The notes under the pieces are model-generated. The model ran no database searches. It saw only the letters and a program-made list of their open reading frames with translations, and was not told the origin of the DNA. Both the position numbers and the translations under genes were made by a program. A DNA stretch of 64,000 nucleotides from Hyaloraphidium curvatum (Eukaryota; Monoblepharomycota; Hyaloraphidiomycetes; Hyaloraphidiales; Hyaloraphidiaceae). Shown here piece after piece: positions 1,198-36,176 of this stretch; position 1 is the stretch's first letter, and every line of letters begins with the position of its first letter. The stretch is from positions 124,001-188,000 of the forward strand of contig JAIVFI010000025.1 of the NCBI GenBank assembly GCA_025558095.1, written 5' to 3'.

Positions 1198-3524
1198 TCA
1201 CTTGGTCGCCGCCGCGATCGCCTCGAGCTCCTCGCCGACCTTGGGAAAAGTCGGCCGATCCGCCGGCTCCTGGGCCCAGCTCCGCTCCATGACCGCCCAA
1301 ACGCTGTCGAGGACATCCGCAGGGCGATCAGGTCTTGCTCCCTTGGATGTGACCGCGTACGACACCTGCAAAGCATCCGTCAGATGAGCCCTCGTCGGAG
1401 CCAGCTGGACTCACCGCCCAGTAGTTGGGAGCCCCCCCGAACGGATACAGTCCGTTGCTGACGACCTCGTAGCACAGCATAGCGAAGCTGAAAACGTCCG
1501 CCGGCGGCCGGAGGGGTTCTCCCATCATGATCTCGGGCGCCATGAAGCCCACAGTTCCGCCCGGCACGTGCGCGTCCGGCCCGCCGATGCTGACCGATCC
1601 GTCGCCCGGCTGGCGGAACTTGGAGAGCCCGAAGTCCGAAACCAGTGCGCGCCCGGCCGCGGCGTCGACGAGGACGTTGGCGCACTTGAGGTCACCGTGC
1701 AGGATGCCGAAAGAATGCAAGTAGCTCATGCCCCGCGCCACGTCGCAGAGGAGGCGCAGACCCTGGTCGCGAGGCCACGAACGGGATTTCAGGTATTCCC
1801 GCAGGTTGCCGCCGTCGGCGATCTCGGAGATGAGCATCGGGGGATCAATGGTGAATGCGATCAGAGGCAGCACTGGAAACCATGTTCACTGCGCGATCTC
1901 AGGGCATGAGGAAGCACCTGCAACTTACCGTTGCGCTGGGCCAGCCCCTCCCAGTTCTTGATCTCCTTGGCGAACGCTCTCGCTGCATCCACGTCGAACT
2001 CTCGCCTAGCCACCTTGACCGCCACCTTGACCGATCCCCGCAAAACTCCCTCGTAGACGACGCCGAAATTGCCCTTGCCCAGGATTTTGGATTTGTCTAC
2101 GATAACGTCCTCCGCGCGGACCACGAACTTCGACCCGGCGACCGCCGTCAGGGGCGAGTCGGGATCCGGCATGGAGGGCACTCGCGAAACCACGGGGGCA
2201 GCGGGCGGCGTTGCAATGACTGGAGGAATGGCGGCTTTGCCTTGATTGTTGGCGACAGCGGGAGCGGGAACAGATTCCGAAGGGGCGACAGAGTACATGG
2301 GATTCCGGGGGAGGGGATCCATCGGCCCGTCCGTGCTGACGATTGGCACCGAAAGTGCCGCCGAGGCCGGGCCAAAATACGAAGATGGCACCGTCATCTG
2401 CGAGACGGCTGTCATGTCCGTGGTCGAGGGGATCGTGGCGACGGAGGCGCTGGCGGCCGTGACCGTCAGCGCTTCCGATGGGCGGGATCCAGGTGGCCCC
2501 TTGTCCAGATCGTACACAATCGCCTTCTCCCCGGCTTCTGCGTCTGTCGCCATACTGTTCTTTCCAGCATTTTCCTTAGCTTTCCGCGACCGGTAGTAGA
2601 CGAGCCCGCCGGCGGCGAGACCGACCGCGGCAAGTCCGCCGATGACTCCGCCGACGATGGCGCCAATGGGAGTCGAGCCCGAGTTCGGGATCGGTGACGC
2701 CGTCGGGCTGGATGTCGCGGAGGCGACCGTGGGGAAAGCCCATACCGGGCTGGCGGTCACGTTGACGCAGTAACCGGTCATTGACCCTGCATATGGTCCG
2801 TCAGCCATTGGAGGCGGCGGAAGGGCTGCGTGCGTTTCTCACAAATCTGCCCGTTCACGGGATAAACGAACGTCTCGCAGCCGCCGGGATACAGCGAACC
2901 TCGCTGGAGACCGGCAATCGGGGTCTTGCATGCCTCGTCTGCAAAGAACTGCAAGGTTCCGTTCCCCGGGCCGTCCGGGCACTGCGGATAGCCGAATCCG
3001 GGGAGCCCTAGCGCAGCCAGTGGGATGCAGTTCTCGGGGAGCACCGCCGCGGCAAAGGTGTAGTTGCCAGAGCAGTTCGCAGCCGAAAAATCCGTCGCAG
3101 TAAAATAGACGCCAGGGGACCCGGTCAGGTTCAGTGTTGTGATCTCGAGCGGGCAGACCTGGGAGATGCCGATGTCATTGAACACGACTGGTTGCGGTTG
3201 TACCGTCAAACACGCCACCGCAGACCCTTTAGGCGAAGACTTACTCGAGTTGCAAGGCGTCTCGGCCCCGCACTGTCCCGGGAACGCGACCTGAATAGCC
3301 TGCGGCCGAGCGGGCGTCGGGTTGCAATTCGTTTCGAGCCAATAGCCGTTGATCACAGTCCCGGCATGTGCTCCGCCAAAAAAGGTAGAGAAAAGGAGTG
3401 CCGCGAGGGAAGAGAGTCGCAGCAGGCGCGTGCCATCGCTCGAGATGCGAGACGGGAGTGCGTCGCAGTTCCACCGCCCCTGCCCTCCCACCGCGGGACG
3501 TGCGACCGGCGCACGACGCCGCAT
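1198..3524 (-). CDS. Receptor-like TKL protein kinase with signal peptide, Cys-rich ectodomain and one TM
   Basis: Four exons on the minus strand: 3524-2843, 2786-1929, 1872-1415 and 1365-1198; introns are 56, 56 and 49 bp and the protein is 721 aa. The N-terminus has a hydrophobic signal-like stretch (about residues 34-50) ending in GGAHAG. A Cys-containing ectodomain with several N-x-S/T sites follows. A Gly/Ala-rich TM lies near 268-290, then YYRSRKAK as stop-transfer. The cytoplasmic kinase (about 440-715) has GKGNFGVVYEG (P-loop), AVKVAR (VAIK lysine), HGDLKCANVLV (catalytic loop), DFGLSK and APEIMM. The order fits a TKL-family receptor kinase. HGD replaces HRD, so it is a non-RD kinase. 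The catalytic Asp is present and the enzyme is predicted active. The ectodomain matches no family I recognise. It diverges from the ankyrin kinase at 3771. Confidence 0.88.
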
Positions 3525-3770: not shown

Positions 3771-5509
3771 ATGGCGTCCGCCGCGGTCGGACCACGTCCT
3801 CCGCCTAGTACCAGAACTTCGAGGACGATAAGCTCGGACGACCCGCTGTTCGCCTGGGTCAAGGCGTGCAAGAATGGAGATGACAATACCATCTCCATGC
3901 TTCTCGCCGACCCGAACTTCGACCCGAACGCCCGTGATTCACAGGGGTTCACGGGCCTCATGCACGCGAGCAGTAAGGGGACCGTCAGGGCGCTGAAGCG
4001 GCTTCTTTCGGATCCTCGCGTGGATACCGAGGTTGCCGGCACCGGAGGGTACCGTGCCTTTCATTTTGCGTGCCGTGGAGGACACCTGGACGCGGTCACC
4101 ACGCTCCTGGACGCGGGGGCGGACCCAAACGCAAAGAAGGACGACGGCATGACCGGATTCATGCTTGCGGTGCGGGAGGGTATGGAGGATGTGGTGGATG
4201 CCCTGCTGCTTCGTGCCGGTACCGACAGCAAGGCCGTGAAGTGCTACATGCAGGACAATAACGGGCGCACGGCTTTTGCCCTGGCCTGCCTCTCCCAGGA
4301 CGTTGTAATGGCGGACAAGCTGATTCGACGCTCTGACGACATTGGGATCGATTTTCCGGACTCAGATGGCGACACGCCGTTCCACCATGCCTGCCGTTCC
4401 AACAACGAGCAGCTCGTTCGGGTCTTTCTGCGGCATCTGGGCACCTTTGACATGTCTCCCTGCAACAACGCGGATTACCTTCCTTACGAGCTTTGCCGGC
4501 CGGAACTGCGGGCCCTCATCGAGAAGAAGGAGCTCATCGCGTCGGCCCAGCCGGAGCGCCTTCGAGTGCGTTCTTCCGAGATCATCTTCGACCCGGCATC
4601 GAAGCCTTTGGGGATCGGGGCCCAAGGAATTGTTTTCACGGGCGAGTTTAGGGGCCAGCACGTCGCGATCAAGGTGATGAACCCGAGGGGAACGCAGAAC
4701 GAGGCACGCGATTTTGCAAAGGAGATCGAACATTGGGCCATACTGAACGGCCACGAGAACGGTGAGTGCCTCGTGTCCTCTCCTTGGCCTTCCCCGCCCT
4801 TATGCTCGGCGTTCAACCAGTCCTGCCACTTCTTGCATGGAGTGACGATCCCCTCTGGATGGTGTGCCCGCTTGCGGACGGCGGAAACCTTGCCATGTGG
4901 CTCTGGCATCACCGTGAAGACCCTGAATACCCCTTGCTCTCCCTGCGGCTGCTGCTCGATGCCGCACGGGGCATCCTGTTTATGCACCAGAGCCACGTCG
5001 TACACGGCGATCTCAAGCCGGCCAACATCCTGGTATCGGGCGGCTCGGCCATGATCGCGGACTTTGGCCTTGCCCGCGTGCGGATGTCCGTCTCGGCGCC
5101 CTCCGTGAGGGATTCGGACGGGATCTCGGGGACGCTGCCGTTCTGCCCGCCGGAGTTCTTTGAGGAGCTTCCCGGCGCGTTGCCAGCCAAGAAGCGGCAG
5201 ACCACGGATGTATATGCCTTTGGAATGGTCGCGTTCATGGTAGGCAGCCGCGGCCTGGAGCCCTTCAGCGAGATTCAGGACAATCAGAAGGTGTGAGATT
5301 TTGTGGTTGCGACAGTAACATGAATAGCTTATCCTTCGCGACAGATGGTCCGCAACATACTCAGGGGCAAGTTCGACAGGCCGGACGGGACGCCGGATTG
5401 GCTTTGGAAGATAGTGAAGCGGTGCACGGCCAGGCATCCGCACGAGAGGCCAAAGATGGAACAGGTGGTCGCGGAACTTGAGAAGTCGTTCGAAGCACTG
5501 ACTGCATGA
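3771..5509 (+). CDS. Ankyrin-repeat TKL protein kinase
   Basis: Three exons: 3771-4761, 4821-5290 and 5345-5509 (introns 59 and 54 bp), giving 541 aa. Residues about 30-250 hold five or six ankyrin repeats, with hallmarks such as GFTGLMHASSKG, HFACRGGHLDAV and DGDTPFHHACRS. The kinase domain (about 270-535) begins with GIGAQGIVFTGEF, where the last P-loop glycine is replaced. It then has VAIKVM, HGDLKPANILV, ADFGLARV and a PPEFF segment in place of APE. HGD makes it non-RD, but the catalytic Asp and the DFG are intact, so it is probably active. No signal peptide or TM is seen, so it is probably cytosolic, with the ankyrins selecting a partner. Ankyrin-TKL fusions are known from plants, animals (ILK) and amoebae. 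An earlier in-frame start is possible but lacks an ATG. Confidence 0.87.
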
Positions 5510-27811: not shown

Positions 27812-29536
27812 ATGGCTCTCGTCTCCATCTCCCTCACCTTGCTTCTCGCGGCCGCCGTCGCAGCGGTCCTGGCCTGGCGCCGTGTTGCCGACGCGGCGCG
27901 CTTCCTGGCGGCCCGCTTCTCGGACTACTTCCTCAGCCCGATGCGGAGCATCCCCGCGCCCTTCTCGGCGCTCTGGAACCCCAACATCTTCGTCGAGGAC
28001 ATCGTGTCCGGCGCCCGCCACTTCCGCTGGGAGGCCATCCACGACAAGCTCGGCTCCATCGTGCGCACCAACACCTTCACCGTCTCGGTCGCCGACCCCG
28101 CCCTCGCGCAGTGCATCCTGAAGGCGCGCGACCTCCCCAAGGTGCGTCACGGGCATGCTCCTCGGTGCTGCCGACTGACGATTCCCTCAGGCGTCGATCT
28201 TCTACGACCTCTTCCGGCTGCCGCAATTGCCCCCATCCATGTTCAACACCACGGACAAGGACTATCACCGCACCCGGCGCCGGCTCATGTCGCCCTCCTT
28301 CTCGATCGCCTACCTCAACGGGCTCGAGGGACACATGTCGCAGGTGTGGAGCCAACTTACCGGCCGCGTCGATCGGGACATCGCCTCGACGCCGGAGAAG
28401 GAGGCCAGGCTCAACATCGTGCAGCTGATGAACGGCGCGGCCTCGGACGTGATCGGCGCCACTGCTTTCGGGCAATCGTTCGGCGCCGTGGACTCGGCGG
28501 AGCAGCACCCGTTCCTGAAGGCCATGGACGGTTTTTTGAAGAGCCTGATGATGTGGACCGCGGCGCCGCAGCTGTTCGAGCAGTGGCGCACTCTCCCCAC
28601 CGCCGGCTCGCTCGAGTTCATGGAGAAGTTCACCGCCGACATCGTCGCGGAGAGGCAGCAGCTGACGGCTGCAAATCCGGACGCGGCGCCCAAGGACATC
28701 TTGCAGAACCTGATCACCGCCAAGGACAAGGAGAGCGGCGCGACCCTCAACTTTGATGAGATCGTCACCGAGTCATCGCTCATGCTCGGGGCCGGCGGTG
28801 AGTCCCCGCGCGACGGCCTCGATCGAGCACTGGCTGACTGCGGGCACAGGTGATACGACCGCCATGACCATGTCCTGGGTCATCTACTTCCTGGCCAAGA
28901 ACCCCGAATACGTCCCCAAGCTTCGCGCCGAGCTCGCCTCGCTCCCGCGCCAGGACGGCCTCTTCCACCACTCGGACCTCAAAGCCCTCCCCCTCCTCAA
29001 CGGCATGATCAACGAGACCCTCCGCCTGCACCCGCTCAACGTCGGCGTCCCGCGGATGGCCCCGGCCGGGGGCTTCACCTTCGAGCGCGACGGCAAGAAC
29101 GTGACCATCCCCGAAAACACCGTGATCATCGTCAACACCTGGACGATGCACCGCAGCCCGGCGCTGTGGAAGCGTGCGCGGGACTGGTGGCCGGAGCGGT
29201 GGCAGCAGGCCGAGGCCGAGGAGGCCGAACCGGGGCCGAGGACGGTGTACAAGGACGCGTTCTTCCCGTTCTCGATGGGATCGAGGGACTGCATCGGCAA
29301 GGTGGGCATCCGACTGGAGCCACTTTCTTGCCCGCGCTTACCTGGATCGCCCCCAGAACTTTGCAATGCAGGAGATGCGCATCATGATCGCCAACTTCGT
29401 CGTCAGGTACGACTTCCGGCTCGCGGAGGGCTCCGAGACCGTCGAACCGTGCGAGAACTTTGTTTTGCAGCCCGCGGGGAAGCGGATCGACATGATGGTG
29501 CGGCGGAGGGCGACGAATGTGGCCGCGACGGCTTGA
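27812..29536 (+). CDS. Cytochrome P450 monooxygenase
   Basis: Four exons: 27812-28141, 28191-28797, 28850-29301 and 29357-29536, giving 522 aa, normal for a microsomal P450. The N-terminal anchor is SLTLLLAAAVAAVLAW. The I-helix motif GAGGDTTA spans the exon 2/3 junction. The K-helix ExxR is NETLRLHP. The heme loop FSMGSRDCIGKNFA spans the exon 3/4 junction, with Cys as the thiolate ligand. The meander region WWPERWQ is also present. The sequence around LQNLITAKDKESGATLNFDE is typical of fungal CYPs; clan and substrate cannot be assigned. A TATA-like AATAAAAAG lies about 60 bp upstream of the ATG. It sits between two secreted-protein genes and there is no partner reductase nearby. Confidence 0.92.
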
Positions 29537-29947
29537 TTTGGATCAGCGGGTCGGCACAACATGGAAATGTGTACTCCCATTTGAATGAATGTTCGCTTCG
29601 AATGTTCTGATCTTGTTCGTGAGGCCAGTGTGGTGCCGCCTCGAGAAACCTCTGCGCTGTGTTGCGGGCGGCTTCGACCGTGGCGGGGTAGGCCGCACTG
29701 CCACAACCGATTTCCAACCGCCCCTGCGCCGAAGGTCCGCCTCGCAGAGCCCCTGTTCCATCGCGCGGCTGTGGCGGCCATGAATTCCTATAAAGACCCG
29801 GGGCCGGGAGGGCCGAACCCACCATCACCTGAACCCGAACAAGGCCGCGAACCACCCTACCTCCTCTCCTGCACTGGAATCGACTCCGATCTCAATCGGA
29901 CTTTGCCGACACCGCGAATCTTCTTCTCATACACCTCCAAACGCGCC
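29537..29947. other. Intergenic region upstream of secreted protein gene
   Basis: 411 bp after the P450 gene. It contains the TATA box listed separately at 29789. No gene is supported; the plus-strand frame that runs through it into the next gene lacks protein character before the ATG at 29948. Confidence 0.5.
29789..29795 (+). promoter_or_regulatory. TATA box of secreted-protein gene
   Basis: TATAAAG, one of the few perfect TATA-type elements in the window, about 155 bp before the start codon at 29948. The spacing would give a 5' UTR of about 125 nt. A TATA promoter fits a strongly or conditionally expressed secreted protein (inference). Confidence 0.55.
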
Positions 29948-30433
29948 ATGAAGGTCTCGACCGTCCTCGCCACCGTCGCCGCGTGTGCCGCGGCCGCCAC
30001 CGGCGCCGCCGCCGCCCCGCTGGCCTCCTCGAACTCTGGCTACTACCCGCCCACCACGCCCCCCAACAACGTGAAATGGGTCTGGGGCGGATGCCTCCCG
30101 AGCTCCGCGAACCCGAACATGCAGTGCACCTACTCCACAAAGTACTATTCTGGCGATTTGGCCGGCGACCTCACCCCGGACGGGCAGCAGTGCGGGGATC
30201 CCACCGCCGCCTTCTGGTGCGGCTCCTTCGTGGACCCCACCAAGAGCTTCTACCCCGGCGAGAGCACGGACTACATCCTGCCCGCGTACGCGAGGTGGCA
30301 CTACGTGGGGTGCTCGTCCACGAGCGCGCCGCTGAGCTGCCCGGCCAACGTGCAGGTCTACCAGACCTACCACGGGCAGACCCCGGACAACACCCAGTGC
30401 GCCCAGGGGACGGGCTTGTGGTGTGGGTACTAG
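29948..30433 (+). CDS. Predicted secreted protein, 161 aa
   Basis: Single exon with a textbook signal peptide (MKVSTVLATVAACAAAATGA). The mature part has eight Cys and is rich in Tyr, Pro, Ser, Thr and Gly. Examples are SNSGYYPPTTPPNN, VKWVWGGCLPSSANPNMQC, FWCGSFVDPTKSFYPGE and ARWHYVGCSS. It ends at GTGLWCGY. Tyr- and Trp-rich, Cys-stabilised small proteins are often cell-wall or carbohydrate binding, but no family is recognised. The gene has its own TATA box. An upstream in-frame extension to 29585 exists, but it would place the signal peptide internally. Confidence 0.75.
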   Translation: MKVSTVLATVAACAAAATGAAAAPLASSNSGYYPPTTPPNNVKWVWGGCLPSSANPNMQCTYSTKYYSGDLAGDLTPDGQQCGDPTAAFWCGSFVDPTKSFYPGESTDYILPAYARWHYVGCSSTSAPLSCPANVQVYQTYHGQTPDNTQCAQGTGLWCGY

Positions 30434-30772: not shown

Positions 30773-33700
30773 ATGCAGCCCGCCCGGGAGGCGGGAAGGA
30801 GGCCCGGCGATGGACGTCCGAGCGGAACGGCGGTGCCCGGCAGCTCTGGAAGCGCGGGGACGGACCGAACGGCCGGTGCCGACGCCAAACCTCGCCTGGC
30901 GCGCTCCAAGACCTCCTTTTGGGTGGAGGAGAACGACATCTCCTACGACCGGGACGTCTGCCTCGGCAAGGGCGGCTTCGGCATCGTGTACAGGGGAAAG
31001 TACCTCGGGCTCACGGACGTGGCCGTCAAGGTGGCGCTGGACGTGTACAGCACCGAGCAGGCGGACGCATTTCTCGAGGCCGAGGTTAAGGTGTGGGCGG
31101 AGCTGCCGGCGCACCGCAACGGTGGGGCCTTGACTGGCGGATTGCCTCGTCGAGTTGACGAGTCCATCTGCTCAGTTGTGCCACTCCTCGGATACCGCAC
31201 CGCACCGACGCTGCTCATCACCGAGCTCTTCCACGGCGGCAGCATGAAGAGCTTCCTTGAGAAGAAGGCTTGGGACCGGGACCTCGCCCTGCGACTTCTG
31301 GCCGACGCTGCGGTGGGCATGACGTTCCTGCACTCGAAGGGTGTCGTCCATTCGGACCTCAAAGCCGAGAACGTGCTCGTCGACGACACCGGCGGCACCC
31401 CGGTCGCCAAGATTGCCGACTTTGGCCTGGCCAAGGTGCGCACGCGTGTCGAGGACACGCAGGGCAACAAGGCGTACCAGTACCGCGGGCTCGCCGGGGC
31501 GACGATCCGCTACGCGCCGCCCGAGTTCTTCGAAGACGAGCCGCTGCGCAAGCCCTCGGACGTGTGGACCTTCGCGATGATGTGCTACCAGGTCTTTTCG
31601 GGCGGGCGGGATCCGTACGAGAACCTCAGTTCTGCACCAGCCGTTTGTGGCACTGCTGCCGTCTCATTCATCCTTTCTCACTCCTGCGCCGCCTTAGATC
31701 ATGAAGGCCATGTTCCGCGGGGATCGGCCGTCCCGGCCAGACGGGGTCCCCGACGCCGTGTGGGAACTGATGGTCTCGTGCTGGGCCGAGGAGATGGAGG
31801 CACGGCCGACCATGATCGCGGTCGCGACGGCGTTGAAGCGGGTTCTGGAGCAGCCCGCCGTGAAAAAGGCCGTCTGGGTGGAAGTGACCGACGTGGAGAT
31901 ATTCCGTGATCGGCCGCTGGGTTCGGGCGGGTTCGGAGAGGTGTTCCGCGGCCGGTTCCGCGGCGCCGACGTGGCGGTGAAGGTGATCGATGGGACAATG
32001 GAGGAGGATCGAGCGCGGGCGCTGTTCGAGGCCGAGCTGAAGATGTGGATTGACGTGCCGCAGCACAGGAACCGTGGGTTCGTCGCAAGATGTGCCATGA
32101 TCTCTGCTAACGACGCTCTTCACCCAGTCGTTCCCCTGATTGCGTACCGCGCCAACCCGACTTTTCTCGTCACGGAACTCTGCTCGGGCGGCAGCCTCAA
32201 GTCCTACCTGTCGAGCAAGGGCTGGCCCAAGCCGCTCTCGCTGCAGCTGCTCGCCAACGCCGCAGCAGGCATTGAGGTGCTGCACGCTGCGGGCATCGCA
32301 CACTCTGACCTGAAGGCCGACAACGTGCTCGTGTCTTTCGACGCTGCCGGCAACCCTGTGGGCAGGATTGCCGACTTTGGCATCTCGAAGCTACGCACGC
32401 GGGTCCACGACAGCAAGGGCAACAAGGGCTATGACTATAAAGGCGTATACGGGGCGACAGTGAGGTTTGCACCGCCCGAGTTCTTCGACCAGGAGCCGAT
32501 GGGGAGGCAGTCTGACGTGTGGACGTTTGGCATGATGTGCTATGAAGTTCTGTCTGGAGGACGGGAGCCTTACGAGGACCTCACCTCGCCGGCAGCAGTT
32601 GGTTTTCACCGCGCGTCCGAATTCCTGGGCTGACACATCGCTGCTCCGTCTCAGGTGATGAGAGCCATCTTTACAGGCAGCCGGCCTCCGCAACCACCCG
32701 GTATTTCAAGCGCAGTTTGGAGCCTTGTTGAGCAATGCTGGAGAGAGGAGCGATCGGAGAGACCCGCCATGGCCGAGCTTGCGGAAGTGCTGCTCGAGGA
32801 ATCTGCATCAGCAGATCAGGAGCGGCGGGACAGGGAGGAACGCGAGGCCGATGCAAGGGCCAGGAGGGAGACCGAAGAGCAGGCGAGGAAGGACGCCGAG
32901 AAGCACGCGAGGAAGAAGGCCGAGGAGAGGGCGAGGAAGGAGGCCGAGGAGCAGGCGAGGAAGGAGGCCGAGGAGCAGGCGAGGAAGGAGGCCGAGGAGC
33001 AGGCGAGGAAGGAGGCCGAGGAGAGGGTGCGCCGCGAGAGGGAGGAGCGCATGCGGAGGGAGGCTGAAGAGGCAGCCCGGCAGGAGACCGCCCGAAAGCT
33101 GCACCGCGACGCAGAACGCCGCATCCGCAATCTGGTTTCCAAGAACGACGTCAACGTCGATTTCTCAAAGAAGCTCGGCGAAGGATCATTCGGCAGTGTT
33201 TACGTGGGCACCCTGCACAAGACGAACCGAGTTGCTGTCAAGGTGCTCAAGGGGGCCTTCGACCGCGAGACCGAGAAGCAGTTCTTGGCTGAGGTCGAGA
33301 TGTGGAGCGGTTTGGTGCAGCGCAACAGTGGGTTCGCTTTCGGGAGCGCTCCAGTGCTCCCCCCGACTAATCCACATCATATGCGCATCTAGTCATGCCC
33401 CTGATGGCCGTCTGCCTGGATCCGCCGATGATGATCAGCGAGATTGCCGACGGCGGCAACATGCGGGGCTACCTCAGTCGCATGAACTGGGACCAAGACC
33501 TCGGATTGCGCCTCATCTGGGAGGTCTCGGCATGGCCTACCTGCACTCGTTCAATGTCCTGCACGGCAACCTCAAGTGCAGCAACGTTCTCGTAGACGAG
33601 GGCCGCGCGCTCATCACCGACTTCGGCCTCTCCCACATCCGCGATCGAGCCACGGCGATGGAGTTCGAGTGGAACGAGGGGAGGGCCATTGGCGTGTTCG

Positions 33701-34101
33701 ACGAGGATAGGTTCGTGTCCCCCGAGCTGATGAGCGGCGAACCTCTGCGGGCACCTGCAGATACGTTTGCTTTTGCTATGCTGTGCTACGTGGTTGTCAG
33801 CAGGGGGCGGTACCCGTTCGGAGACAAGTCTAACGGGACCGCGGTGCGTAGCCGTTCGCGCCATCGTGCTGTCCCGGAGTTCGCTGACAGCCACCGCCCA
33901 ACGCAGCTAATCTATGCGGTGCTGCACAAGGACGAGCGTCCCCAGCGTCCCGAAGGCACGCCGAATGGCGTGTGGCAACTCATGCAGCAATGCTGGGCTC
34001 GCGATCCCGCACAAAGGCCGCCGTTCGCCACCGTTCGGGACCAGCTTCAGGAGCTGCGCAACTCCAGGGCGGAGGTGCCTGCCGCTGTGCTGTACAAGTA
34101 G
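30773..34101 (+). CDS. Triple tandem TKL kinase protein with coiled coil; third kinase degenerate/frameshifted
   Basis: Seven exons: 30773-31121, 31176-31642, 31698-32073, 32128-32597, 32655-33327, 33393-33843 and 33907-34101 (about 990 aa). Kinase 1 has GKGGFGIVYRG, VAVKVA, HSDLKAENVLV, DFGLAK and APPEFF. Kinase 2 has GSGGFGEVFRG, VAVKVI, HSDLKADNVLV, DFGISK and APPEFF. A charged Glu/Arg/Lys/Ala coiled coil (about 130 residues) links it to kinase 3, which has GEGSFGSVYVG, VAVKVL, HGNLKCSNVLV, DFGLSH and SPELM. The exons run in phase from kinase 1 through kinase 2 into kinase 3. Two abnormalities are confined to kinase 3: the catalytic Asp is Asn (HGN), and the frame breaks at about 33531 before GMAYLHS, consistent with loss of 1 or 4 nt. 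It may be a pseudokinase, or decaying. Start uncertain: ATG 30773 chosen. Confidence 0.8.
32883..33026 (+). repeat. 24-bp coding tandem repeat (coiled coil)
   Basis: Six copies of a 24-bp unit based on GCGAGGAAGGAGGCCGAGGA plus GCAG, at 32883, 32907, 32931, 32955, 32979 and 33003. The middle three are identical, and the outer copies carry a few substitutions. It encodes the octapeptide ARKEAEEQ inside the linker between kinase 2 and kinase 3. The copy number is likely to vary between strains through slippage. Confidence 0.9.
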
Positions 34102-34307: not shown

Positions 34308-34769
34308 TCACGCTCCAGCCCTCTTTGCCAGCATCTGCCTGACCGCCTTCCTCGTCGCAGAGCTCCCCACGTCCGCCGGCCTCTTTTCCCGCGCGAACAA
34401 CCCGCTTCCGGGGATGCCCAGCCCCGGATCCACCCTCCAGTCCGCCAACAAAAACCCCACCGCCTCCACGCGATCGTTCTCGCACGCAAGGTATAGCGCT
34501 GTCCGCCCCTTCGCGTCCCGTGCGTTGGGATCCGCCCTCCCGTCCTCCAACAGCACCCGCACCGCTTCTGTCCGGCCCGCCGCCGCGGCGGCCTGCAGCG
34601 CCGTGAAGCCCAGCGCCCCAGTGGCACCAGGCTCGATATCGGGGAGGAGTCGCAGGAGCGTCGGGAGGTCCCCGGCCTCGGCGGCGGAGATGAACGCGTC
34701 CCGAGCCCACGAAAGGACGCAGGTCTTGCGCGTCGAGACGTCGCCGGGCTCAGCGAGCTGCGAGTCCAT
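34308..34769 (-). CDS. Small ankyrin-repeat protein
   Basis: Single exon, 153 aa from ATG 34769 (MDSQLAEPG). An upstream in-frame ATG at 34898 would add 43 residues but leave only 24 bp to the divergent hydratase gene. Three ankyrin repeats are visible: WARDAFISAAEAGDLPTLLR, GFTALQAAAAAGRTEAVRVL and GRTALYLACENDRVEAVGFL. A degraded fourth follows. There is no kinase domain or TM. It ends with RQMLAKRAGA. Probably a protein-interaction module. Its position directly after the triple kinase (convergent, 206 bp apart) and its repeat style similar to the ankyrin kinase at 3771 suggest it could be a detached ankyrin portion of a kinase (inference). Confidence 0.75.
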   Translation of the reverse strand: MDSQLAEPGDVSTRKTCVLSWARDAFISAAEAGDLPTLLRLLPDIEPGATGALGFTALQAAAAAGRTEAVRVLLEDGRADPNARDAKGRTALYLACENDRVEAVGFLLADWRVDPGLGIPGSGLFAREKRPADVGSSATRKAVRQMLAKRAGA

Positions 34770-34922
34770 CGCGTCCCGGCAAATACTGCGAAGCAGGAGT
34801 GCGCCGTCGTCGATTTCCTCGATCGAGCTGGGATGGCGGTGCTTGATGTTGTTGACGCGACGCGCGGTGGCAAGGCAGCCAACGGGCCTGTCTCCCATTC
34901 CTTCTCCTGTCCGTTGCCCACG

Positions 34923-36176
34923 ATGCCGCCGGTCGACCTCTCCACGCTCCCCGTCAAGCGCGTCCCCTTCCAGTACACGCACCGCGATGTGATCCTCTAC
35001 GCCGTGGCCGAGGGTGCCGGCTTTGAAGACCACAAGTGGGACCTCCTCCCGGGACCCTCTTAGTTCGCCATCTCACGCGTCACCGCCCCGCCTTCTACCT
35101 TATCTCACCCATTCTGCCCCTACAAGATTCGTTTGGGAACGCCATCCCTCGTTTGACGTCCTTCCTACATACATCACCGTGCTCGCGCAAAAGGCAGACA
35201 CCTTCGATCTCCGGCCCTTCGAAGTCATCGCGGCGCAAAATGCAGTCGACGTCCCGGGCATCAAGATAGACCCCAAGCTGGTTCTGGACGGAGGCAGGAC
35301 GATCGAGTGGCTCGTGGGTCTCCCTGGGTGGGGTGTTGACTAGGCTGACCCGTGATCCGGCAGGCTCCCATCCCGCTCTCGGCAAAGGGCGAGACCATCT
35401 CCAAAACCACCGGCGTTTACGACGTCGGCAGCGCCGCCGTGATTGAGACCACCTCTACCGTCGTCGCCAACGGCGTCGAGGTCGCCAGGATCGTCGGGCA
35501 GAGGTTCTGCCGCGGCGCCGGGGGGTTCGGCGGGCCAAGGCCGCCCAAGGAGGCCGGCGCGGCGGTGCCGGAGGGCAAGGCGCCGGATGCCGTGATGGAG
35601 ATCAAGATTCCGCTGAACCAGACGCTGATTTACCGGCTGAGCGGGGACACCATGCCTCAGGTGGGGCGTTCCTCGGCAGCCAGATGGCACAGGAGGCTCA
35701 CGTTTCTATCTGGGCAGCACGTGGACCTGGAGCTCGCCAAGGCCAACAACTGGCAGATGCCGATCGTCATGGGTGGGTTTCCCGACCCCCCTTTGCGCCT
35801 CGTCCCGCTTTCGCCCACTGACACCCGTCCTCCCCCGCCCACCAGGCCTCGGAACCTACGGCATGACCGGCCGCGCCATCCTCAAGCACTTTGCCGGCGA
35901 CGAACCCTCGCGGATGAAGTCCATGAAGGGCCGCTTCTCGGCCGTGGTGTACCCCGGCGAGACGCTGCGCGTGGAGATGTGGAAGGTGCGCGAGACGGCG
36001 GACGAGGTCGAGGTGGCGTTCGTGAGCAGGGTGGACCAGCGCAAAGGGACCGACGGGAAGGGTCTGGTCGTGATGAACATGGGTGAGTGTGTGTGCAGTG
36101 TTGGGCGATCGGGAGCTCATAATCTTGGGCAGGCTCGGCAGTGTGCAGGAAGGCGGCCCCGGGGGCGAAGATCTGA
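34923..36176 (+). CDS. MaoC-like enoyl-CoA hydratase 2 (peroxisomal beta-oxidation type)
   Basis: Six exons: 34923-35035, 35127-35313, 35364-35660, 35718-35772, 35846-36082 and 36133-36176, giving 310 aa. It has two hot-dog halves, like the hydratase-2 part of multifunctional enzyme 2 (HSD17B4, fungal Fox2). The N-terminal half has FVWERHPSFDVLPTYITVLA. The C-terminal half has the active-site block YRLSGDTMPQHVDLELAKAN, with Asp and His as the catalytic pair, and PIVMGLGTYGMTGR. Reaction: hydration of trans-2-enoyl-CoA to (3R)-hydroxyacyl-CoA. The protein ends in GAKI; AKI is a known PTS1 variant (Candida tropicalis multifunctional enzyme), suggesting peroxisomal import. The terminal exon of 44 nt exists mainly to supply this tail. 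No dehydrogenase domain is attached. It shares a 153-bp promoter with the ankyrin gene. Confidence 0.88.

Follow-up and report, generated by a model that had tools for sequence, protein, structure and literature searches.

Hyaloraphidium curvatum is an early-diverging, free-living freshwater fungus. We analysed a window of 64,000 nucleotides of its genome (contig C25, positions 124001-188000; other contigs are abbreviated likewise, and coordinates without a contig refer to the window), in which the plus strand at 30773-34101 carries a gene with three consecutive kinase domains, here called K1, K2 and K3. An earlier note on this DNA had proposed three kinases of the tyrosine kinase-like (TKL) type in this order, and the Pfam profile PF07714 indeed finds all three: three stretches lie within residues 1-824 (395.8 bits) and a fourth in the C-terminal 169 residues (89.6 bits), every kinase domain of the gene exceeding the curated cut-off of 23.1 bits. 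That TKL-type kinases occur in tandem in a fungus is likewise borne out. The features of the gene are collected in Table 1.

Table 1. Features of the three-kinase gene, in window coordinates.
Feature	Positions	Strand	Basis
Exons 1 to 7	30773-31121, 31176-31642, 31698-32073, 32128-32597, 32655-33327, 33393-33843, 33907-34101	+	
N-terminal 55 residues, containing ARSKTSFWVEEND; start at 30773	30773-30937	+	same start as P0001
K1; HSDLKAEN at 31349, DFG; spans introns 1 and 2	30938-31853	+	PF07714, motifs
Intron 1, 54 nt, after HRN, phase 1	31122-31175	+	same join in P0001
Intron 2, 55 nt, phase 0	31643-31697	+	same join in P0001
K2; HSDLKADN at 32301, DFG; spans introns 3 and 4	31893-32798	+	PF07714, motifs
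Intron 3, 54 nt, after HRN, phase 1	32074-32127	+	same join in P0001
Intron 4, 57 nt, phase 0	32598-32654	+	same join in P0001
Linker, charged single alpha helix (ER/K type), 112 residues (602-713)	32796-33131	+	charge spacing, model
24-nt tandem repeat, 6.9 copies, inside linker	32858-33023	+	repeat search
K3, first part: N-lobe and start of helix alphaE; spans intron 5	33141-33529	+	PF07714
Intron 5, 65 nt, after QRN, phase 1	33328-33392	+	homology
Frame break in helix alphaE of K3	33524-33532	+	frame reading, alignment
K3, second part, other frame; HGNLKCSN at 33562, DFG, SPE; spans intron 6	33529-34101	+	PF07714
In-frame stop after the break	33593-33595	+	translation
Putative intron 6, 63 nt; kinase position equals that of introns 2 and 4	33844-33906	+	homology

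The seven exons sum to 2981 nt and are separated by six short GT-AG introns. Exon 3 contains both the last part of K1 and the first part of K2, so that the two kinases are joined within one exon, and exon 5 holds the C-lobe of K2, the linker and the N-lobe of K3 in a single frame. A public model, P0001 (677 residues, annotated 'kinase-like domain-containing protein, partial [Hyaloraphidium curvatum]'), uses the same start codon and matches our translation letter for letter across the first four introns; it terminates inside the linker, at the end of the 24-nt repeat array. This identity supports a single chain of K1, K2 and the helical linker. The placement of introns 5 and 6 is by homology. 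The earlier note had joined all exons in phase into a chain of about 990 residues. Shared exons do link K1 to K2, and K2 through the helix to the N-lobe of K3; the frame, however, is lost within K3 at about 33527, and translation of the DNA as sequenced yields a product of 845 residues. The short N-terminal motif ARSKTSFWVEEND (ARSKTS.WV) also precedes the kinase in the public models P0002, P0004, P0005 and P0006.

K1 and K2, which are 55% identical to each other, retain the catalytic lysine (VAVK), HSD and DFG, and by these motifs both look active. With HSD they are non-RD kinases; HRD is found in 2 of the 63 aligned kinase segments. Their DLKxxN loop is presumably of the Ser/Thr type, and the TKL label rests on this loop and on PF07714; in the PDB, the sequences closest to K1 belong to tyrosine kinases.

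Between K2 and K3 the earlier note had placed a coiled coil. The composition of the linker (33% acidic and 32% basic residues, 3.6% ILVMF, no Gly or Pro) does not suit this assignment: in the best heptad register, positions a and d are hydrophobic in only 2 of 32 cases. Opposite charges at spacing i/i+4 occur at 51 of 108 positions, against 23.1 in shuffled sequences, none of 2000 shuffles reaching as high. The linker is thus best read as an ER/K-type single alpha helix rather than a coiled coil. An AlphaFold model of P0001, built with 12 alignment rows, shows two kinase folds and an unbroken helix at 593-676 with a mean predicted local distance difference test score (pLDDT) of 80; its predicted template-modelling score (pTM) is 0.52, at which the mutual placement of K1 and K2 is unreliable.

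K3 is interrupted in helix alphaE. Read in frame from exon 5, exon 6 encodes the conserved stretch IMPLMAV...RLIWEVS and then runs into stops, whereas the conserved sequence that should follow (GMAYLHS...) continues in another frame of the same exon, as GMAYLHSFNVLHGNLK... Joining the two parts leaves a single unfilled alignment column, marked X, in which 62 of 62 other aligned segments carry a residue; the DNA of K3 is therefore four bases shorter than that of its relatives. K3 also has HGN in place of HxD. The catalytic Asp is kept in 58 of the 63 segments and missing in five, and K3 is predicted to be catalytically dead. The pairing of active kinase with pseudokinase that the earlier note had drawn from plant immune receptors holds insofar as K1 and K2 keep their catalytic motifs and K3 carries HGN; the pseudokinase-like member, though, is frame-broken as well.

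Could the break be bypassed? An extra intron was rejected, for conserved residues abut it on both sides and the loss of at least 50 bases would delete the catalytic region. Ribosomal frameshifting was likewise discarded: no slippery site was recognised, and one conserved residue would presumably still be absent. A shifted splice site at intron 5, by which the second part of K3 would keep its frame, is unlikely; the second frame of exon 6 is stop-free throughout, yet it does not encode the first ~45 conserved residues, and the stretch from IMPLMAV to WEVS would be scrambled or dropped.

Where do the three kinases come from? We built a tree of 63 rows and 152 columns from 67 hidden Markov model matches in the fetched loci, of which seven short ones (including both halves of K3 and the third kinase of a locus on C3 described below) were removed; K3 was re-entered with its halves joined by the X, P0004 and P0005 were added, and clades were named partly after the tree had been seen. 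The K2 copies form one clade with the segment C3_240471 (support 100/99). K1 copies fall into a separate clade (96/90) with Sel1-kinase loci of C37, P0004, P0005 and C1_1501612, and K3 clusters with C37_92898 and C7_59233 (98/90). The K1 and K2 clades are sisters with a support of only 69/21. Approximately unbiased (AU) tests reject monophyly of K1, K2 and K3 (p 9e-107) and a position of K3 with the K2 clade (p 1.3e-7), and leave the K1s of the tandem loci as a clade of their own at p 0.26. A grouping of K3 with the third kinase of a related locus on C1 (C1a, see below) is absent from the best tree, with an AU p of 0.054; when K3 is grouped with the first half of the third kinase at C3, represented by 64 residues in a quickly built tree of 64 rows, p is 0.81.

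Internal duplication, which the earlier note had proposed, is accordingly rejected for K3, and for K1 and K2 is neither established nor ruled out at this level of support. The note had seen a sign of duplication in the homologous splice pattern of K1 and K2. Intron positions and phases are indeed equal in K1, K2 and K3 (the phase of the last K3 intron being read in the frame after the break). However, 11 of the first 30 genome matches to K3 run from query positions 56-65 to 207-220, so that both borders, seen here as ends of matches and not as proven introns, also occur in single-kinase loci. Since the borders are found family-wide, a shared splice pattern cannot show duplication. Internal triplication of one kinase would account for the equal introns in all three domains and for the likeness of K1 to K2, but against the AU tests and the single-kinase loci with the same borders we hold it to be extremely improbable.

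In a genome assembly of 31.9 Mb and 55 contigs, exon-level searches gave 158 matches to PF07714, 171 to K1 and 190 to K3, which are lower bounds from overlapping searches; well over a hundred domains match PF07714, K1 or K3. The 63 sampled segments are mostly HGD or HSD (non-RD), and their partner domains include ankyrin, Sel1, RCC1 and MIB/HERC2. The K1-K2 tandem is present at four loci: the C25 gene, C1:351718-356152 (C1a), C1:545884-550495 (C1b) and C10:51475-55900. At C1a, C1b and C10, too, K1 and K2 are joined in one frame; a stop follows K2 immediately at C1a and C1b, and about 28 residues on at C10. In the core exon, K1 is 81% identical to the K1 of C10 and C1a and to the C37 Sel1-kinases, and K2 is 75-76% identical to the K2 of C10, C1a and C1b. 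Segments of C1b are repeated on C52, and a copy of the C10 K2 lies on C51. On the small contigs C48, C51 and C52, kinase segments are protein-identical to those of C30, C10 and C1 and represent uncollapsed alleles or recent duplicates.

What distinguishes the C25 gene from the other K1-K2 loci is the absence of a front module and the addition of the helix and K3. Ankyrin repeats precede K1 in P0002 (C1b/C52; together with MIB/HERC2) and in P0006 (C1a), and C10 has, by eye, a charged coil-like stretch in this place; these loci and the Sel1-kinases P0004 and P0005 begin with an ankyrin, MIB/HERC2, Sel1 or charged coil-like module, and nothing comparable to the helix and K3 follows, the chain stopping behind K2 or behind a single kinase. 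The nearest relative of the C25 K2 is C3_240471, with 87% amino-acid identity over 122 codons, a synonymous divergence (dS) of 0.70 and a ratio of non-synonymous (dN) to synonymous divergence (omega) of 0.09. There, at C3:240468-242650, one frame connects the C-lobe of K2 with a third kinase by way of a long charged stretch, so that a charged stretch and an extra kinase stand behind K2 at two loci. The C3 locus is without K1 and the N-lobe of K2; its third kinase lacks an HRN-type exon border, and the later part lies in other frames with no clear intron.

Omega was estimated by the Nei-Gojobori method on the core exon in 19 comparisons. Against paralogues it is 0.14-0.22 for K1 (n=4) and 0.09-0.14 for K2 (n=4); between C10 and C1a it is 0.12 for K1 and 0.07 for K2. 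Judged by these ratios, the K1-K2 module is under purifying selection. For K3, compared in both halves with its two nearest relatives, omega is 0.24-0.30 (n=4, dS 0.93-1.01), as against 0.12 between these two relatives themselves (dS 0.88); compared with more distant relatives it is 0.37-0.39 (n=2).

How, then, is the gene to be read? With slightly better than even confidence, we take it for a single TKL-type gene with a conserved K1-K2 core, to which a helix and a foreign K3 have been fused, K3 being in decay and the product having 845 residues. It would be one member of a TKL-type kinase family that has expanded in H. curvatum. The stable core would be the non-RD double kinase, conserved in both halves; the stiff charged helix and the third kinase, of different ancestry, would have been added at the C-terminus; and the product would comprise K1, K2 and the helix and end in a remnant of the K3 N-lobe. 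A product of this length is likely because K3 has lost its frame in the assembly. A number of observations weigh against this interpretation. Past the break, the 169 codons of K3 are free of internal stops, where mononucleotide shuffles predict 4.9, and their GC content at third codon positions (0.79, against 0.84 for exons 1-4) is coding-like; decay is therefore recent, or the break an artefact. The raised omega is not particular to K3, because distant relatives within the wider K3 clade reach 0.33-0.34 among themselves (n=2). Relative-rate tests give p<0.05 in 4 of 10 cases, with none significant in the reverse direction and an outcome that varies with the outgroup, and the support for an acceleration of K3 is accordingly weak. 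At C1a the public models are split, P0006 comprising ankyrin and K1 and P0003 comprising K2 and a downstream kinase; P0003 bridges the stop codon behind K2 by an intron, and the frames suggest an ankyrin-K1-K2 gene plus a separate kinase. Finally, the frame break could itself be a sequencing or assembly error, as it is seen in a single assembly with no reads.

In the latter case the gene would encode a full triple kinase of about 990 residues with K3 as a regulatory or decoy pseudokinase, which we regard as possible but doubtful. K3 is undamaged on either side of the break, with coding-like composition and an omega well below 1, the exon borders are common to all three domains, and C30 provides an in-frame stretch of three kinases with two pseudokinase-like domains. 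Yet the shortfall amounts to four bases and not to a single-base homopolymer slip, K3 also lacks the catalytic Asp and has a raised dN, P0001 ends before K3, and no K3-identical protein of fitting length is among the best 120 matches of each of two database searches. Alternatively, the locus might be divided into two transcription units, one for K1, K2 and the helix and another, starting in the linker region, that is a K3 gene or pseudogene of its own. The stops behind K2 at C1a, C1b and C10 would agree with this, as would the possible own start of the kinase directly downstream at C1a and the end of P0001 in the linker. Against it, no stop interrupts the sequence from K2 to the break in K3, exon 5 runs through in a single frame with helix-type charge spacing, and at C3, too, one frame connects K2, a charged stretch and a kinase; the open linker frame as such is weak evidence, because the repeat within it has no stops. 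We consider two units quite improbable.

On the reading of a single gene with a decaying K3, we infer a double kinase of Ser/Thr type that works inside the cell, with K1 and K2 possibly regulating or phosphorylating each other. The helix would be a rigid spacer, and the C-terminal part held by it, for docking or of pseudokinase type, would by now be in decay; in the sister genes the sensing part would be the N-terminal ankyrin or coil-like module. The gene illustrates modularity, with its conserved K1-K2 core, an exchangeable front and a third kinase of other origin that seems to be on the point of being lost, and the wider tandem-kinase family of H. curvatum is more interesting than the C25 gene alone.

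Is this family comparable to known tandem kinases? The best nine protein-database matches of the gene come from H. curvatum, Tulasnella, a metagenome and a chytrid, with no plant protein among them. Tulasnella P0007 and the metagenome protein P0131 each have four PF07714 kinase stretches in one chain, the chytrid protein P0009 (Polyrhizophydium) has two tandem kinases in one chain, and the metagenome protein P0121 has two kinases, of which the second carries HLN; judged by eye, it also has the N-lobe of another. Because other fungal and metagenome proteins have them, tandem kinases are not unique to H. curvatum; these proteins are 25-41% identical to the C25 gene and differ from it in linkers and domain orders. 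TKL kinases have been described as absent from fungi (PMC3019232), in contrast to the many matching domains and the recurrent tandem-kinase loci, in part with partners predicted to be dead, of the present genome. Among open-licence literature, we found no paper on fungal TKL kinases with Sel1, on three-kinase tandem proteins or on the TKL kinome of early-diverging fungi.

For plant tandem kinase-pseudokinase proteins (TKPs), one survey counts 92 proteins, 52 formed by duplication and 40 by fusion, and names the first kinase (KinI) of WTK1 as a non-RD kinase (PMC6170490); kinase 2 of WTK6-vWA has been proposed to be a decoy (PMC10260399). According to the same sources, TKPs such as WTK1/Yr15, RPG1 and WTK6-vWA/Lr9 likewise have at least two kinase domains in tandem, of non-RD type, some being fusions of unrelated kinases (PMC6170490, PMC10260399). 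Unlike in these, K1 and K2 of the C25 gene both appear active. K3 is pseudokinase-like and frame-broken. The gene would resemble plant TKPs in layout at best, descent being unsupported by the similarity ranking. That this fungus assembled, on its own and apart from plants, an extensive set of intracellular tandem kinases and kinase-pseudokinases, some of them triple, and employs these like the plant TKP receptors, with extra, fast-decaying kinases as decoys, is a speculation that we think unlikely to be right; we would put just as little trust in the idea that the set grew by the exchange of kinases and of sensor modules such as ankyrin, Sel1 and MIB/HERC2, the C25 gene being caught in the loss of its decoy. 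If the tandem-kinase loci of H. curvatum are expressed, they would indicate that fungi acquired a tandem kinase-pseudokinase architecture independently of plant TKPs, and would offer a comparison for why such fusions recur.

Janus kinases have two kinase domains per chain, as does P0001, and the Janus kinase dimer structure 7t6f is the top Foldseek match of the model. The superposition is loose (root-mean-square deviation 20.6), and the match reflects the two kinase domains alone. In the C25 gene the dead domain comes last, not first, and the DLKxxN loop is of Ser/Thr type, in contrast to Janus kinases; the FERM and SH2 domains that precede JH2-JH1 in Janus kinases are absent from the Pfam matches of the gene, which are to kinase-like families only. 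Single-kinase matches in the PDB belong to tyrosine kinases, LCK and BTK among them.

The earlier note had called a triple arrangement unusual, a view that the four-kinase proteins P0007 and P0131 and a second three-kinase stretch in the same genome do not bear out. From the PF07714, K1 and K3 lists we selected 148 domain-level matches manually, leaving out the copy contigs C48, C51 and C52, most partial matches and some short catalytic-loop matches. Among these, domains of one strand that are no more than 1.5 kb apart form at least 12 clusters of two or three, with 29 domains in total; frames were inspected in 7 of the 12, and clusters at C14, C17, C26 and C46 were left out. At C30:165797-169510, on the minus strand, a stop-free frame of 816 codons covers three kinase-type parts: it leads from the C-lobe of a kinase with HSD through a second kinase, whose motifs are HSN and SFG, and a set of ankyrin repeats to a third domain, marked by HGN and EFA. 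Of these, Pfam detects the second kinase and the ankyrin repeats; the two outer parts give no Pfam match, and the third domain is based on a 37-bit match and an E of 2e-14; the locus is a candidate for the order kinase-pseudokinase-ankyrin-pseudokinase. It is better preserved than the C25 gene. At C23:605721-609332, a kinase with HCD lies in frame with a pseudokinase-like domain (HGG/DYC), followed by a stop, after which another kinase-like part is seen. The public model P0123, which has two kinases, maps to C30:407849-410164.

Elsewhere in the window lie two further kinase loci of the same type, at 1415-1873 (minus strand) and 4814-5482 (plus strand); P0242, a public model of 289 residues from the same contig, probably corresponds to the former and is 50% identical to K3. 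Upstream of the gene, on the plus strand, 28714-29610 encodes the C-terminal part of a cytochrome P450 (PF00067, 134.7 bits), and 29948-30433 a small protein (161 residues) that begins with a signal-like sequence, contains several Cys and has no Pfam match. Just downstream and convergent with the kinase gene, the minus strand carries an ankyrin-repeat frame at 34308-35072 (Ank_2, 54.5 bits).

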